Made by a program: the position numbers and the translations under genes. Below the pieces are notes generated by a model that saw only the letters and a program-made list of their open reading frames with translations, did not search any database and was not told the DNA's origin. A stretch of DNA of 64,000 nucleotides from NCBI GenBank assembly GCA_947448955.1, contig CANFPU010000006.1, positions 1 to 64,000 of the forward strand, in the 5' to 3' direction. Position 1 is the stretch's first letter. Each line of letters opens with the position of its first letter. The DNA comes from Burkholderiales bacterium. GTDB taxonomy: Bacteria > Pseudomonadota > Gammaproteobacteria > Burkholderiales > Burkholderiaceae_C. Below, piece after piece: positions 511 to 61,845 of the stretch.

Positions 511-586
511 TGGTGGGTGCTGAGGGGCTCGAACCCCCGACCTACGCCTTGTAAGGGCGCCGCTCTACCAACTGAGCTAAGCACCC
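511..586 (-). tRNA. tRNA-Val (anticodon UAC)
   Basis: A 76-nt cloverleaf including an encoded 3' CCA. Acceptor GGGTGC pairs with GCACCC, the D-arm carries AGCTCAGTTGGTAGAGC, the anticodon loop is CTTACAA (anticodon TAC) and the T-arm contains GGTTCGAGCC. It reads GUA/GUG valine codons and lies between the EamA gene and ppiD on the same strand. Confidence 0.97.
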
Positions 587-6821: not shown

Positions 6822-6925
6822 TGAAGGCGTGGACAGCAAGGGCGGCAGCGGACGAAGTGGCCGATTCTGCCGTCCGCCCTGGCCCTTCTCCGGCCCTGAC
6901 GATCCATGCACCAATAATCAGCCCC

Positions 6926-7969
6926 ATGTTGTGGGACCTCTTCTGCCGCGTGATCGACAACTTCGGTGACATTGGCGTGAGCTGGCGTTTGGCCGCCGAA
7001 CTGGCACAACGTGGCCATCAAGTGCGGCTTTGGACCGACGATGCATCGGCCCTGACCTGGATGGCGCCCGCCGGCGCGCCGGGCGTGCAGGTGCTGCAAT
7101 GGACCGATACAGCGCCCCACTCAGCGCCGGGCGACGTGGTGGTCGAGACCTTTGGCTGCGCGCTGCCCGACGCCTTCCTGGCCAGCATGGCCCAGGTCCG
7201 TCGCCCACCGGTCTGGATCAATCTGGAATACCTCAGCGCGGAGCCCTATGTCGAGCGATCGCACGGCCTGATGTCACCGCAGTTCAGTGGGCCGGCGGTT
7301 GGCTTGAACAAGTGGTTTTTCTACCCGGGTTTCACCGCCGCCACCGGCGGGCTGATGCCGGCGGGCGCACGGGTTACAGCCGACCAGACCCGCGCGTGGG
7401 CCCAGGAGATGGGCTGGCTAGGCAATGCCGAAGAGCAACTGGTGACGGTGTTTTGCTACCAGAACGTCGCGTTACCGGCCTTGCTGCAAACCTTGAGCCC
7501 GCAGCGCTGTGCACTGCTGGTGCCGCCAGGTCCGGCGCGGGCTCAATTGCAGACGCTGGACTTGCCGCCTGGCCTGCGACAGGTCGACCTGCCCTACCTC
7601 CGTCAACCCGATTTCGACCGACTGCTGGCCTGTGCCGACCTGAATTTGGTTCGCGGCGAGGACTCGTTCGTGCGCGCCCAATGCTGCGCCACCGGACCGT
7701 TTCTTTGGCAAGCCTACCCCCAGCACGATGGCGCCCAAGGACCCAAGCTCGAGGCCTTTCTCGACCTGTACCTGGCAGACCAAGCGCCGCCGCTGGCGAC
7801 CGAGATTCGAGCGGTCTTCCGGGCTTTCAATGGCCGAGGGTCGGTGCCGAACAGCCTGCCAGACCGTGCCGCATGGCGCGCTGCCCATGCCCTATGGGGC
7901 CGCAAGCTGCAAGCCCAAACAGACCTCTGCAGCCAATTGATCGCCTTTGTCAGGCAAAAGCAAGCCTAG
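6926..7969 (+). CDS. earP: EF-P arginine rhamnosyltransferase EarP
   Basis: Transfers rhamnose from dTDP-beta-L-rhamnose to Arg32 of elongation factor P, the modification EF-P needs to rescue ribosomes stalled at polyproline. The 347 residues begin MLWDLFCRVIDNFGDIGVSWRL, a hallmark of EarP (DUF2331), in which the N-D/DNFGDIGV segment lines the active site. RGEDSFVRAQ near the C-terminal third is the conserved nucleotide-sugar binding motif. The start at 6926 fits the conserved N-terminus; longer in-frame starts would run back into uvrC. efp follows 75 nt downstream and carries the matching Arg32. Confidence 0.96.
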   Translation: MLWDLFCRVIDNFGDIGVSWRLAAELAQRGHQVRLWTDDASALTWMAPAGAPGVQVLQWTDTAPHSAPGDVVVETFGCALPDAFLASMAQVRRPPVWINLEYLSAEPYVERSHGLMSPQFSGPAVGLNKWFFYPGFTAATGGLMPAGARVTADQTRAWAQEMGWLGNAEEQLVTVFCYQNVALPALLQTLSPQRCALLVPPGPARAQLQTLDLPPGLRQVDLPYLRQPDFDRLLACADLNLVRGEDSFVRAQCCATGPFLWQAYPQHDGAQGPKLEAFLDLYLADQAPPLATEIRAVFRAFNGRGSVPNSLPDRAAWRAAHALWGRKLQAQTDLCSQLIAFVRQKQA

Positions 7970-8044
7970 GATGGCGCTAAAATCCTCGGTTTTGCTCCAA
8001 ACCGCATGCCAGCCTTGGCCGCGGCCCAGACTACGGGACTTCCC

Positions 8045-8599
8045 ATGAAAATCGCTCAAGAAATCCGCGCCGGCAACGTCATCATGCAGGACAAGAACCC
8101 TTGGGTGGTGCTCAAGACCGAGTACTCCCGGGGCGGGCGCAACGCCGCCACCGTGCGCATGAAGCTGAAGAGCTTGCTCAACAACCAGGCCACTGAACTG
8201 GTGTTCAAGGCCGACGACAAGATGGACCAGGTCATCCTCGACAAGAAGGATTGCACCTACACCTACTTCGCGGATCCGATGTACGTCTTCATGGACGAGG
8301 ACTACAACCAGTTCGAGGTCGAATCCGAGAACATGGGCGACGCGCTTCACTACCTCGAAGACTCGATGCCTGTCGAAGTGGTGTTCTACGACGGCAAGGC
8401 GATTTCGGTCGAACTGCCAACCTCGCTGGTGCGCGAAGTGACCTGGACCGAGCCGGCCGTCAAGGGCGACACCTCGGGCAAGGTGCTCAAGCCAGCCAAG
8501 ATCGCTACCGGCTTCGACATTCCGGTGCCCATCTTCGTCGCCCAGGGCGACAAGATCGAGATCGACACCCGCACCCACGAGTACCGCAAGCGGGTCTGA
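8045..8599 (+). CDS. efp: Elongation factor P (Arg32 type)
   Basis: Translation factor that promotes peptide bond formation at proline stretches. The 184 residues start [15 protein letters not shown] and show the three-beta-barrel fold of EF-P. The modification loop reads SRGGRNAA with Arg at position 32, not Lys, matching the EarP-dependent subclass. Its neighbour is earP, as expected. The ATG at 8045 is chosen because it matches the family N-terminus. A UUCG-type terminator follows at 8636-8658. Confidence 0.97.
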
Positions 8600-8635
8600 T
8601 CGGCTAGACAACGCCCGCCAAGTCTGCGAATCAAC

Positions 8636-8658
8636 AGGGCACTTCGGTGCCCTTTTTC
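8636..8658 (+). terminator. Intrinsic terminator after efp
   Basis: A 7-bp stem AGGGCAC/GTGCCCT closed by a TTCG tetraloop and followed by a T-run. It lies 37 nt after the efp stop. Confidence 0.9.
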
Positions 8659-54134: not shown

Positions 54135-54728
54135 TCAGCGCTTGGCCAGCAGGCGTTCGACTTCCTGGGTGAATGCTCGGCTTCCAGGGTCGGTCATGGA
54201 GCCAAAGCTCTGCACCTCCAGGCCGTCGCGCGCGATCAGATATTTGTGGAAATTCCACTTCGGCGTGCTGCCTGTTTTCTTCCCGAGCTCGGCAAACAGC
54301 GGGTTGATGTCGGACTTGCCGGACTTCACACTGGACTTGGCAAACATCGGAAACTTGACGTTGAAGGTGTTCTCACAGAACTCGGCGATCTCCTTGTTGC
54401 TGCCTGGTTCCTGGCTGCCAAAGTCATTGGACGGAAAACCCAACACGACCAGACCTTTGTCGGCATAGCGCGCGGACAAGCCTTCCAGCGCCTTGTACTG
54501 CGACGTGAAGCCACAGAAGCTGGCGGTGTTGACAACCAGCACGACCCGACCCGCGTATTGACACAGCGCTTGCGGCTTCTCGTCCTGCAAACGCGGTAGC
54601 TCTCGCTGCAGCAACTCGGGACAAGCCGGCGGCGCCGCCTGCGCGGGATTCAACTGAACCATCGCCGCCAGCCCGGCAACCAGGGCCATGCCGCCCAAGC
54701 GTCGCATGGCATTCAAAATGAAGCTCAC
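54135..54728 (-). CDS. Glutathione peroxidase (Cys type, exported)
   Basis: 197 residues. The N-terminus carries a signal peptide (MRRLGGMALVAGLAAMVQLNPAQA after a short leader). The active site is VVNTASFCGFTSQYKALEGL with Cys at the peroxidatic position; PSNDFGSQEPGSNKEIAEFCE and PKWNFHKYLI (Gln and Trp of the tetrad) are complete. It reduces peroxides, probably thioredoxin-dependent. The GTG start at 54728 has AGGA 6 nt upstream; an ATG at 54707 is possible. It is the first gene of the nine-gene operon. Confidence 0.9.
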   Translation of the reverse strand: MSFILNAMRRLGGMALVAGLAAMVQLNPAQAAPPACPELLQRELPRLQDEKPQALCQYAGRVVLVVNTASFCGFTSQYKALEGLSARYADKGLVVLGFPSNDFGSQEPGSNKEIAEFCENTFNVKFPMFAKSSVKSGKSDINPLFAELGKKTGSTPKWNFHKYLIARDGLEVQSFGSMTDPGSRAFTQEVERLLAKR

Positions 54729-57335: not shown

Positions 57336-58346
57336 ATGACCGACCCCAACCAACGCCGTCGCTTCCTGCATCAAGCGACCGCCGCAGGCCTGGCGATGAG
57401 CCTGGGCGACCAGGCCCGCAGCCAGGCCACCCAGCCCGAATGGCCGCAGGCGCTGGTCAGGCTGATCGTGCCCTATCCCGTCGGCGGTGCCACCGACATC
57501 CTGGCACGGCTGATCGGACGCGGCATCGCGGCGCGCATCGGTCAACAACTGCTGGTCGACAACCGCGCCGGCGCGGGCGGCATGATCGGCATCGGCGCGA
57601 TGGCCAAGGCAGCACCCGATGGCCACACCTTCGGCGTCATCGGCGTGTCTCAGGTGATCACCGCGCCCTTCCTGTTCGAGAAGGTGCCCTACGACACCGA
57701 CCGCGACATCAGCTTCGTGACCTTGCTCGCCACCGTGCCGATGGTGCTGGCAGTGCATCCCAGCGTGCCGGTCCAGACGGCGACAGAACTGATGCAGCAT
57801 CTCAAGCGCCACAAAGGCAAGCTGTCCTACGGCTCGGTGGCCACCGGCCACTACGGCCACGTCGCCTCGGAGCACATCAACGCCACCTACGATGCTGGCA
57901 TGGTCCATGTGCCCTACAAAGGCGAGGCGCCCATGCTGCAAGACCTGCTGGCCAACCAGTTGCCGCTGAGCTTCGTGACCATTGCCACGGCCAAACCGCA
58001 AGTCGAGGCCGGCAAGCTCAGGCTTTTGGCCATCACCGGGACACGGCGTCACCCGTCGATGCCGAACCTGCCCACATTTGCCGAGCAAGGCCTGGACGCG
58101 GATGTCTTCAAGATGAATCCGGGCTGGATCGGCATCGGCGCGCCGGCCAAGACACCGACCGCCGTGGTTCGGCGCATGGCATCCGAGACCGTGGCCGCGG
58201 CCCGCGAGCCTGAAGTCTTCGAGCGCATCGCCGCCTTGGGCATGGACTTCGTTGGCAACACGCCGGAGGCATTTGCCGAGACTTACCGGGCCGAGAAGCC
58301 GATCTGGCAGAAGCTGCTGAAGCAGGCGGGCATTCGCCCGGAGTGA
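57336..58346 (+). CDS. Second Bug-family substrate-binding protein
   Basis: 336 residues. The N-terminus has a twin-arginine-like RRRFLHQATAAGLAMSLG, then VRLIVPYPVGGATDILARLIGRG, DNRAGAGGMIGIGAMAKA and HVPYKGEAPMLQDLLANQLPLSFV, all Bug-family elements. It differs from the first Bug protein in its Tat-like signal and sequence, so probably has a different ligand. It is 50 nt after the enoyl-CoA hydratase gene. Confidence 0.9.
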   Translation: MTDPNQRRRFLHQATAAGLAMSLGDQARSQATQPEWPQALVRLIVPYPVGGATDILARLIGRGIAARIGQQLLVDNRAGAGGMIGIGAMAKAAPDGHTFGVIGVSQVITAPFLFEKVPYDTDRDISFVTLLATVPMVLAVHPSVPVQTATELMQHLKRHKGKLSYGSVATGHYGHVASEHINATYDAGMVHVPYKGEAPMLQDLLANQLPLSFVTIATAKPQVEAGKLRLLAITGTRRHPSMPNLPTFAEQGLDADVFKMNPGWIGIGAPAKTPTAVVRRMASETVAAAREPEVFERIAALGMDFVGNTPEAFAETYRAEKPIWQKLLKQAGIRPE

Positions 58347-58451
58347 AATCTAGAATCAGTGCGCCTGCGGCATCGGCCATGCCTGTGGCATCAAACCCGA
58401 CGACTGGCCTCTTTCAACGCCCCATCTGGGGCATGACTCAGCGGAGCTCCC

Positions 58452-59546
58452 TTGATCACCGTCCTCAATGAACAACGCGAGACGCGACCAGCCCATGCGC
58501 TGGCCGAAGGCGACTCGCTGTGGCTGGACCGCAGCGGCATCGAGGCTGCGACAGGCTGGCAGTGGAAGCCCGAAGGCCTGTGCCAGGGCGACCTCTGCAC
58601 GCCCTTGCCGCGCCAAACCGCCAAGCCGATGGTGCGCGGCGATCAGCTCGACATCGCGGCACTCTGGCAGCACATGGGCCATCCGGTCGAACATGATTCA
58701 GCGGGGCAGACCTGGGTGCTGGGCACCGCAGCCGCAGCGCGCGCGCAGGCGCTGTCCACGCTGGAGGCGCCAGACTTCGAACTGCCAGACCTGGACGGCC
58801 AAACACACCGACTCTCAGATTACCGCGGCAAAAAGGTGCTGCTGGCCACCTGGGCCTCTTGGTGAGGGTGTAGAGCCGACCTGTCCGTGTGGCAGGTACT
58901 GTTCGACGAACTCAAGTCACAAGGCTTCGTGATCCTGGCGGTGGCGACCGACCAGGCTGAGCCGGCGCGACCCTGGATTGATGCTGCCAAGCCCAGCTAT
59001 CCCTGCTTGATCGACCGCGACCACCACGTCGCAGACCTCTACGGTCTGGTCAACGTGCCGCAGGCGGTCTGGATCGACGAGCAAGGCCGCATCGTGCGTC
59101 CGCCGGAAACAGCGGGCTCAACCGATGGCTTTCGAGGCATGGACCGCAAGACCTTCACCTTGTCCGATGCGATCATCGCCGAGCGCGAACGCATCAAGTC
59201 GCTGTACCTTGGTGCGGTCCGCGACTGGGTGACCCATGGGGCGAAGAGCAAACACGTGCTTTCGGCAAAGGCCGCACAAGCGCGCGTGAAGGCTGCTGAT
59301 CCGGCGATCGGTCGGGCGCATGCGCTGTTCCGACTCGGCCAGCACCTGCTGCGCGAGGGCCAGGGGGACGAAGCGGCGCAGCATTTCGCGCAAGCCATCG
59401 CACTGCATCCAGATTCCTGGAACGTCTGGCGCCAGACCGCACAGAAAGACGCGCGCGGGCTGGCCGCAGGGCCCGCGTTCTGGGCCCGCGTCGACGCGCT
59501 AGGCCCCCGGCCGTACTACCAGCCGATCGAGATGGACGGGGTCTGA
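58452..59546 (+). CDS. Candidate selenoprotein: redoxin/thioredoxin-like protein with C-terminal TPR (in-frame UGA at codon 138)
   Basis: Read through one TGA, this is a 364-residue protein. Residues about 1-105 are an unrecognised N-terminal region, about 106-235 a redoxin domain (PDFELPDLDGQTHRLSDYRG, VLLATWASW, then U-G-C-R-A-D-L-S-V-W-Q, FVILAVATDQ, LYGLVNVPQAVWIDEQGRIV), and the last about 130 contain a TPR (HALFRLGQHLLREGQGDEAAQHF). The TGA (58863-58865) falls exactly on the first Cys of the usual W-C-G-C-R motif, with Cys140 kept. Both halves stay in one frame with no other stop, and a hairpin follows the TGA. Start is TTG at 58452 with GGAG upstream. A plain nonsense mutation or sequencing error is the alternative. 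Confidence 0.75.
58866..58897 (+). promoter_or_regulatory. Putative bacterial SECIS element
   Basis: A hairpin starting 14 nt after the UGA: ACCTGTC (58879-58885) pairs with GGCAGGT (58891-58897), 7 bp including one G-U, around the loop CGTGT (58886-58890). The apical loop begins 21 nt after the UGA and has a G in its second position, as known bacterial SECIS loops do. No selA, selB, selC or selD gene is in this window. Confidence 0.6.
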
Positions 59547-59599
59547 GATCGACAGCCAAGCCCGAGCGATGCACCGGGAACACCCAGCCCGGTGCATTC

Positions 59600-59683
59600 A
59601 ACCGCCGCCTAAACCGCCGCCTGAACCGTCACCGAAGCCGTCACCAAAGCCGTCACCAAAGCCGTCACCGAAGGCGCCACCGA
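59600..59683 (+). repeat. 12-bp tandem repeat, 7 copies
   Basis: Seven successive 12-bp units drifting from AACCGCCGCCTA to AGCCGTCACCAA and AGGCGCCACCGA. It lies in the 180-bp gap between the candidate selenoprotein gene and the alpha/beta hydrolase gene. Confidence 0.88.
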
Positions 59684-59727
59684 AGCCGCGATCGCTACGG
59701 TGAGCGCCGCGCAGCAGAAAGCCCGCA

Positions 59728-61845
59728 TTGATCCGCTATTTGAAAACCTTCGCCGCGGCCGCGTTGGCCTCGACACTCGCCCTCGCTTTCACGTCCAGCG
59801 CCCAGGCGCGCGTGACCCGGATCGTCATCGACGAGATCGTCGCATTCGCGGCGCCAGCCGGTACCCCCGCGCCCGCTTTCCCCTACGAGCAAGTGGCCGG
59901 GCGCGCCTTTGGTGAACTGGACCCCGCGCTGCCGGGCAACGCGATCATTCAAGACATCGCGCTGGCCAAGGAGGCGGATGGTCGGGTGCGATATGTCGCG
60001 ACCTTCGTGATCTACAAGCCGGTCGACCGCGCCAAGGCGAGCGGCCTGATGTGGCACGACGTGCCCAATCGCGGTCGGGTGTACGCGATGGCACCACAAG
60101 AACGAGCGCTGGGCGACATCATGCTGGCCTCGGCCTGGCAAGGCGACAACGCGGGACAGACGGCGGTTCGCGAGAAAGCTGCCGCCAACGGCCTGCAGTG
60201 GCTACAGCTACCAGTCGCACGCGGCATTGGCGGTGCGCCGATCACTGGCGAAGTGATGGGCCGCATCGTCAACCGCTCGGGTCTGGGATCGCAGCCGCTG
60301 CTGGTGCAGACCAACCCGGTGCCCTACAAGCCCATGACCCTCGACACCCGCAAAGCGCGGCTGGTGTCGAGAGGCGGCGAAGGCATGCATGGCCAAGTGA
60401 TCGATGAGTTGGAAATTCCCGCGACGGACTGGGCCTGGGCCCACTGCGACGCCACCCATCCTTTTCCAGGCAAGCCGGATCCGACGCAGGTTTGCCTGAA
60501 GCAGGGCTTCGACTTGAAACGCCTGTACCAAGTGGTTTTCACGGCAGCCGACCCGTATGTGCTGGGCATCGGCTTCGCCGCCTGGCGCGACGTCGCCACG
60601 TTTTTCAAGACGGCCGCTGCCGACGACACGGGCACGCCCAACCCGATCGCCAAATGGGTCAAGCATTCAATCGGGCGCGGTGTTTCGCAGTCCGGCAACT
60701 ACCTGCGTGGCTGGCTACACCTGGGATTCAACCAGGGCGAGGACGGCACGCTGGTGCATGACGGCATGTGGCCGATCATCGCTGGGCGACGCATCGCCCT
60801 CAACTTTCGATGGGCGCAACCGGACGGCGTGCTGGAGCTGTATCAGGCGGGCAGCGAGGGACCGCAGTGGTGGCTGCCGCATCCTGATCCACTGCGCAAC
60901 TTGCCGGCTGCCGGCATCCTGGACCGCTGCACCGCGACCAAGACCTGTCCGAAAATCATCGAGCATTTCGGCTCGGCCGAAGTATGGGCGCTGAAGCTCA
61001 CGCCAGAATGGGTGGGCACTGACGCCAAGGCGGATCTGCCCTTGCCGGACCACGTGCGTCGCTATTACATCGCCAGCAGCAGCCATGGCGGCGGTGCCGG
61101 CGGCTTCGACACCAGCCTGCCTGGCGCAGGCCTGCCGACCCAGGGCGCGACCTGCCCGGGCAACAACTTCGGCACCGGCGTGCTGCCCGCCAACCCCGTG
61201 ACCCATGTGCAGACGGTCAACGCGATTCGGGCTCATTTCCGCCAATGGGTGATCGAAGGCACACCGCCGCCGCCCAGCAGATTCCCGCGACTGGCTGACG
61301 GCACGCTGGCCGAAGCCCACAAGGCGGCGATCGGCTTCCCCACGCTGCCAGGACTGCGCCCGACCCTGCCAGAGCCAGACTTCATCATGCCGGTCCTTGA
61401 TTACGACTGGGGGCCACAGTTCGACCCGAAGGACGGCTCAGGCATCGCCGCCAACGCGCCGCCGCGCATCAAGCAGGTGCTGAAGATGTTCGCGCCCAAG
61501 GTGGATGCCGACGGCAACGAGAAAGGCGGCGTTCCGGTCGTGCTGCTCGACGCACCGCTAGGCACTTACCTGGGCTGGAACATCACCGCCGATGGCGCCC
61601 TGCCTTTCCACAAAGGGCAAATCTGCAACTACGTGGGCGGCATGATTCCTTTCGCGCGCACCGAGGCTGAGCGCAAGGCCACCAACGATCCTCGCCCCTC
61701 CCTCGAGGAGCGCTATGGCCATCACGACGGCTATGTGGCAGCCATTCAGAAAGCCACAAAACGGGCGCTGGCAGCAGGTTTCCTGCTGCCCGAAGACGCC
61801 ACCCTCTTGATTCAGGCGGCCGACGCCAGCAAGGTACTCAAATGA
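59728..61845 (+). CDS. Large exported alpha/beta-hydrolase-domain protein
   Basis: 705 residues from a TTG start (MIRYLKTFAAAALASTLALA, signal peptide). The conserved GRGVSQSGNYLRGWLHLGFN contains the probable nucleophile Ser (about residue 320) and is typical of the bacterial alpha/beta hydrolase domain family of about 600-700 residues. Two further signature areas are WDVPNRG-like GLMWHDVPNRGRVYA and DGYVAAIQKATKRAL near the end. The substrate is unknown. No ATG gives a signal peptide, so TTG is preferred. The stop overlaps the acyl-CoA dehydrogenase start. Confidence 0.8.
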   Translation: MIRYLKTFAAAALASTLALAFTSSAQARVTRIVIDEIVAFAAPAGTPAPAFPYEQVAGRAFGELDPALPGNAIIQDIALAKEADGRVRYVATFVIYKPVDRAKASGLMWHDVPNRGRVYAMAPQERALGDIMLASAWQGDNAGQTAVREKAAANGLQWLQLPVARGIGGAPITGEVMGRIVNRSGLGSQPLLVQTNPVPYKPMTLDTRKARLVSRGGEGMHGQVIDELEIPATDWAWAHCDATHPFPGKPDPTQVCLKQGFDLKRLYQVVFTAADPYVLGIGFAAWRDVATFFKTAAADDTGTPNPIAKWVKHSIGRGVSQSGNYLRGWLHLGFNQGEDGTLVHDGMWPIIAGRRIALNFRWAQPDGVLELYQAGSEGPQWWLPHPDPLRNLPAAGILDRCTATKTCPKIIEHFGSAEVWALKLTPEWVGTDAKADLPLPDHVRRYYIASSSHGGGAGGFDTSLPGAGLPTQGATCPGNNFGTGVLPANPVTHVQTVNAIRAHFRQWVIEGTPPPPSRFPRLADGTLAEAHKAAIGFPTLPGLRPTLPEPDFIMPVLDYDWGPQFDPKDGSGIAANAPPRIKQVLKMFAPKVDADGNEKGGVPVVLLDAPLGTYLGWNITADGALPFHKGQICNYVGGMIPFARTEAERKATNDPRPSLEERYGHHDGYVAAIQKATKRALAAGFLLPEDATLLIQAADASKVLK

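Follow-up and report, generated by a model that had tools for sequence, protein, structure and literature searches.

A gene in the window (the whole 64,000-nucleotide stretch of DNA analysed here) very probably encodes a selenoprotein, a ResA/TlpA-like oxidoreductase with selenocysteine (Sec) as residue 138, which falls within or at the edge of the NCBIfam family NF041054. The reading of its internal TGA as Sec is well supported by the content of the genome and by comparison with relatives. As listed in Table 1, the gene occupies a single forward frame that opens with TTG and is broken only by this TGA, located at the position of the first redox cysteine (A-T-W-A-S-W-(TGA)-G-C-R-A-D-L-S-V-W-Q). 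The original prediction had described a frame interrupted only at this cysteine, continuing for about 680 nt through a TPR and conserved on both sides of the TGA. Sequence and translation agree with this description: 226 sense codons (678 nt) follow the internal TGA before the terminal stop, PF13428 is matched in the distal part, and identity to the homologue in locus L027 is 65% before the TGA and 70% after it. A start codon at an equal distance from the TGA (-137 codons) is available in L027, L029, L034, L045 and L047.

Table 1. Features of the candidate selenoprotein gene (positions in the window).
Feature	Position	Strand	Remarks
Probable ribosome-binding site GGAG	58443..58446	+	5 nt upstream of TTG; read in sequence
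Predicted selenoprotein CDS	58452..59546	+	364 residues, Sec at 138; TTG start 58452; stop TGA 59544-59546
N-terminal domain, residues 1-95	58452..58736	+	Cys44 58581-58583, Cys49 58596-58598
AhpC-TSA / redoxin (ResA/TlpA-like) domain, residues 105-215	58764..59096	+	Pfam PF00578 1.2e-22, PF08534 1e-15
In-frame TGA, residue 138 (W-A-S-W-U-G-C)	58863..58865	+	TGA or Cys codon in 80 rows
Cys140, second redox residue of U-G-C	58869..58871	+	invariant in 41/41 aligned members
SECIS-like hairpin	58879..58897	+	7-bp stem, loop CGUGU starting 20 nt past TGA
Single TPR repeat, residues 289-331	59316..59444	+	PF13428 TPR_14 26.0 bits, cut-off 23.5

When 399 genomes of the order were searched (E <= 1e-20), eight were found to carry the gene, the window's own genome included, and all eight copies contain exactly one in-frame TGA; a scan of GTDB contigs yielded 76 loci. 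In the resulting set of 80 family rows, the window among them, the redox column holds TGA in 33 rows, TGC in 43 and TGT in four, and nothing else, so that only UGA or Cys occurs at this site among the homologues, as the original prediction implied. Rows were removed from the set where they represented paralogues of the ordinary TlpA-like type within the own genome (L022, L023), weak paralogues in which the site was uncovered at the threshold used (L024-L026), a fragment stopping short of the site (L084), matches outside the redoxin domain (L108, L109) or a second record of the L027 gene (L036). The TGA rows are mostly Pseudomonadota MAGs, with one labelled Deltaproteobacteria.

These rows bear directly on two simpler readings of the TGA. 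A sequencing or assembly error that turned TGC or TGT into TGA is conceivable in a draft MAG of 324 contigs, but the identical codon is present in two other MAG assemblies (L034 and L035, 94% identical) and in 30 further distinct relatives, and the probability left to such an error is practically negligible. The second is that the TGA is a true stop, marking either a pseudogene or two adjacent genes, the first of 137 aa and the second restarting at the GTG at 58887; a mechanical ORF listing indeed gives 58452-58865 and 58887-59546. A pseudogene, however, would show decay elsewhere, whereas here 33 of 80 rows share a single TGA at one and the same position, the frame is open on either side of it and both halves are conserved; two genes meeting inside U-G-C would leave no intact active site. 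Termination at this codon is thus very unlikely. Since the same TGA is found in L034, L035 and the other relatives, with both halves homologous, the same holds for chance and for a pseudogene private to this genome.

The Sec machinery whose presence the original prediction made a condition was found complete in the own genome. A tRNA-Sec (71 bits; identified by ARAGORN as SeC with anticodon TCA) adjoins selB (356 bits), and selA (562 bits) and selD (428 bits) are also present, each of the four scoring above its curated cut-off. These genes lie on contigs other than that of the window, in a draft bin that is 95% complete with 6.5% contamination; tRNA-Sec also occurs in the genomes of the near-identical L034 and L035, which speaks against a contaminant origin. 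Among the genomes of the relatives, tRNA-Sec (E <= 1e-9) was detected in 30 of 33 with a TGA gene versus 16 of 45 with a Cys gene (Fisher p 5.6e-7, kinship uncorrected), the filters having been stricter in the search of the Cys genomes. In these counts G240 and G401 are probably one genome counted twice, L069 and L071 belong to one genome, and L098 was left out; the bins of the three TGA genomes in which tRNA-Sec was not found may be incomplete. Three further frames were observed around the Sec genes of the own genome. In the mechanical listing, an ordinary TlpA-like ORF (L110:8570-9187, forward strand, WASWCEPC) begins before the selA ORF (6885-8639) has ended. Upstream of selB, on the same strand, lies a 500-residue ORF (L111:10185-11687, reverse strand) that carries a CPTC motif early in its sequence and was matched neither by Pfam at 1e-8 nor by NCBIfam at E <= 1; it probably ends at its TGA stop, as several more TGA codons follow. 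Just after selD, L112:7587-8684 (forward strand) is akin to FMNH2-dependent alkanesulfonate monooxygenase, below the family cut-off.

A third reading, in which UGA is decoded as Trp (code 4) or as Cys through an unusual tRNA, draws on the fact that Cys is the alternative residue among the homologues. Against it, TGA serves as an ordinary stop in the window, both at the end of this gene and, at 58344-58346, at that of the TctC gene; of the ten hits of the tRNA-Sec model, the eight scanned by ARAGORN comprise one tRNA-Sec and seven ordinary tRNAs; the Sec machinery is complete; and the SECIS-like constraint described below is stronger in TGA members. Such decoding is therefore considered extremely unlikely, and insertion of Sec is the preferred reading.

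The candidate SECIS element spans nt 17-35 counted from the TGA and has a predicted energy of -9.4 kcal/mol. In the accessible part of PMC13188914, a bSECIS is given a loop of 3-9 nt with a G in its first two positions, a stem of 4-16 bp, a location 16-37 nt after the UGA and an MFE <= -7.5, and the hairpin lies within every constraint stated there. These limits are weakly specific: under three choices of stretch they accommodated 29, 29 and 31 of the 33 TGA genes, and also 29, 10 and 34 of the 47 Cys genes. The first 42 nt of the 33 TGA members align without gaps, and the pattern GA-Y-Y-TG-Y-C-x-G-x-x-TGGCAG is nearly frozen, in part because of amino-acid constraint (W and Q). Codon usage at these positions nevertheless differs between the two groups: TGA members use CAG in 33 of 33 cases and GTG at the V position in 30 of 33, whereas Cys members use CAG in 32 of 47 cases and have no uniform codon at the V position. 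Similarly, when compared with random synonymous recoding, the hairpin gave a mean z of -1.10 in the 33 TGA genes versus -0.15 in the 47 Cys genes (Mann-Whitney p 1.0e-6, kinship uncorrected). The fold of the single sequence is unexceptional (z -1.04 and -1.92). No compensatory base changes were seen in the stem: 98.7% of the cells are paired and no pair varies on both sides; of five stem pairs, three are invariant, one varies one-sidedly and one departs through unpaired cells only. A search of Rfam with positions 58000-60000 returned no match at E <= 5, which says little about a SECIS. With the machinery in the genome, a column of TGA or Cys only and a SECIS-like hairpin behind the codon, the central claim of the original prediction, that Sec replaces the first redox cysteine, is well borne out.

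A quick tree built from the 80 rows requires at least five changes between Sec and Cys by parsimony, or four when only well-supported branches are counted. Two Cys members, L042 and L064, fall within the window's own clade of 14 rows, and tRNA-Sec was not found in their genomes, the pattern to be expected from a switch to Cys upon loss of the machinery. The same clade also contains three Cys members from Myxococcaceae (L039-L041), whose genomes do have tRNA-Sec. Since the two forms of one enzyme have been exchanged at least four times on this tree, the family offers a fair natural test of the benefit of Sec in a thioredoxin-like enzyme.

An AlphaFold2 model of the protein, with Sec given as Cys, had a mean pLDDT of 95.8 and a pTM of 0.92. 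Its residues ~97-264 match ResA and a DsbE-like protein as the best PDB matches (Z ~16, rmsd ~2.2, 135-139 residues). The structure alignment, which covered 41 of the 80 rows, shows no variation at Cys44, Cys49, Cys140 or His191, and residue 138 is always Cys or Sec; Cys44 and Cys49 form a C-x4-C pair in an N-terminal domain that all the aligned members conserve. The N-terminal domain was also modelled with confidence on its own (pLDDT 93.5). The window's copy of this domain had no Pfam match at E <= 0.1; in the alignment of 34 members, four Pfam families each match one member at that threshold, the window's copy not being among them. Structural searches with it gave no Foldseek match in the PDB at E <= 0.001 and, against 70 chains with VIA-align, a best Z of 4.0, too low to mean anything, while among PDB sequences a profile of the domain matched a single one (E 0.062). 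As VIA-align compared 70 chains only, the fold of this domain may already be known elsewhere. By eye, neither a signal peptide nor a membrane anchor is apparent in the N-terminus, LITVLNEQRETRP.

The gene is preceded in the window by genes for a TctC receptor, an enoyl-CoA hydratase and a second TctC receptor, and followed by an abhydrolase, an acyl-CoA dehydrogenase and an ADH-like gene, a setting earlier taken for a catabolic cluster. This part of the original prediction did not stand. When 40 loci were searched for the flanking proteins, the block of TctC, enoyl-CoA hydratase, TctC, acyl-CoA dehydrogenase and ADH-like genes was recovered only in the near-identical MAG represented by L035 and L084; L034, whose protein is 94% identical, shares the redoxin gene alone within 9.4 kb. 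Even in L035 the Abhydrolase_10 gene that follows the selenoprotein gene in the window (59728-61845) is missing from its place between the redoxin and acyl-CoA dehydrogenase genes, and has thus apparently been inserted in one locus or lost from the other. Distant relatives of individual neighbours were found in other flanks: TctC proteins with 30-48% identity in L027 (one locus with L036), L031, L038 and L042, enoyl-CoA hydratases (35-39%) in L028, L044, L045 and L061, acyl-CoA dehydrogenases (27-30%) in L036 and L042, and the abhydrolase (71%) about 4.6 kb downstream of the gene in L037. These occurrences may argue against a purely accidental setting; the flanking genes belong to large families, and no function is therefore read from them. 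Clustering of the flanking ORFs of 80 loci gave the gene itself and the frame antisense to it as the two largest clusters, and no other among the 25 largest exceeds five TGA loci; the picking of these ORFs was crude, many of them resembling spurious antisense frames. In L045, L046, L055 and L060 the gene has a luciferase-like monooxygenase nearby, too few cases to build on. Elsewhere in the window, a gene of the glutathione-peroxidase family (54135-54728, reverse strand; PF00255) with Cys in the motif NTASFCGFT is located 3.7 kb from the selenoprotein gene, and the sole tRNA found is a tRNA-Val with anticodon TAC (511-586, reverse strand).

Most likely, the gene yields a soluble thiol/selenol oxidoreductase of the ResA/TlpA-like type that resides in the cytoplasm, and a scheme for its synthesis and action can be proposed. 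SelB loaded with Sec-tRNA-Sec would be placed by the hairpin 20 nt past the UGA and insert Sec at residue 138, and translation would then go on to residue 364. The selenolate of Sec138 would attack a disulfide, a peroxide or another oxidised substrate, and Cys140, two residues on in the Sec-Gly-Cys sequence, would resolve the selenenyl intermediate. A thiol donor would re-reduce the Se-S bond, possibly via the invariant Cys44/Cys49 pair, and the TPR would probably serve in protein contact. One extension of this scheme, rather unlikely as it stands, is that the N-terminal domain serves the Sec-Gly-Cys centre as an internal relay of electrons or as a module for binding substrate; if this were true, the protein would be a self-contained selenoenzyme with two centres, of a type so far uncharacterised.

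The combination of N-terminal domain, redoxin and TPR had been thought possibly new, yet it is already covered by NF041054 (WAxxUGC_long, 'ResA-like WAxxUGC motif-containing protein'), which is similar in length and whose motif appears here as W134-A-S-W-U138-G-C140. The read-through protein, with U given as C, scored 305.3 bits over residues 25-331 against an equivalog cut-off of 300, whereas the gene read from DNA in a six-frame search, with the TGA inside, scored 298.8, under the cut-off. Six of ten relatives scanned scored above 300 (L028 300.9, L031 468.4, L039 301.2, L065 329, L069 537.4, L080 435.8) and four below (L046 283.5, L049 293.6, L062 271.5, L088 217.9). With the window's score barely past the cut-off and four of the ten relatives below it, this branch lies at the margin of the model; the 300-bit threshold divides the family. 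A search of 369 genomes of the class, the own genome included, gave an NF041054 match at E <= 1e-40 in three; scored from DNA, none of the three reaches the cut-off.

Selenoproteins of this description have been listed before. In the parts of these sources available to us, the Global Ocean Sampling survey of 2008 includes a Prx-like (UGC-containing) selenoprotein (PMC2398784), later lists give a 'UGC-containing Prx-like protein' (PMC9312934) and a 'UGC-containing TlpA disulfide reductase family protein' (PMC13188914), and none of the three states a function for the family. The described family shares with the present protein an AhpC-TSA/TlpA domain with a U-G-C motif, and judging from these partial descriptions rather than from sequences, it is likely the family of the window's gene. 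A search of the accessible literature found no paper with 'WAxxUGC' and none with 'ResA-like' plus 'selenoprotein'. Because of the NF041054 match and the listed UGC selenoprotein family, the gene is assigned to an already known kind; the family is catalogued and no new principle is opened, and the gene provides a clean case of a selenoprotein split in two by ordinary gene calling.

The peroxiredoxin motif PxxxTxxC, in which the peroxidatic residue follows Thr/Ser at a distance of three residues and Pro at a distance of seven, is absent here, the corresponding places being occupied by Ala135 and Leu131. Thiol-disulfide oxidoreductases of the ResA/TlpA type usually have a C-x-x-C active site and a membrane anchor or signal peptide. 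With ResA, TlpA and DsbE the present protein shares the thioredoxin fold of the subgroup and the W-A-x-W ahead of the first redox residue; it differs from them in its U-G-C centre, with one residue between the redox pair instead of the two of C-x-x-C, and in having an additional N-terminal domain and a TPR, with no signal peptide obvious by eye.
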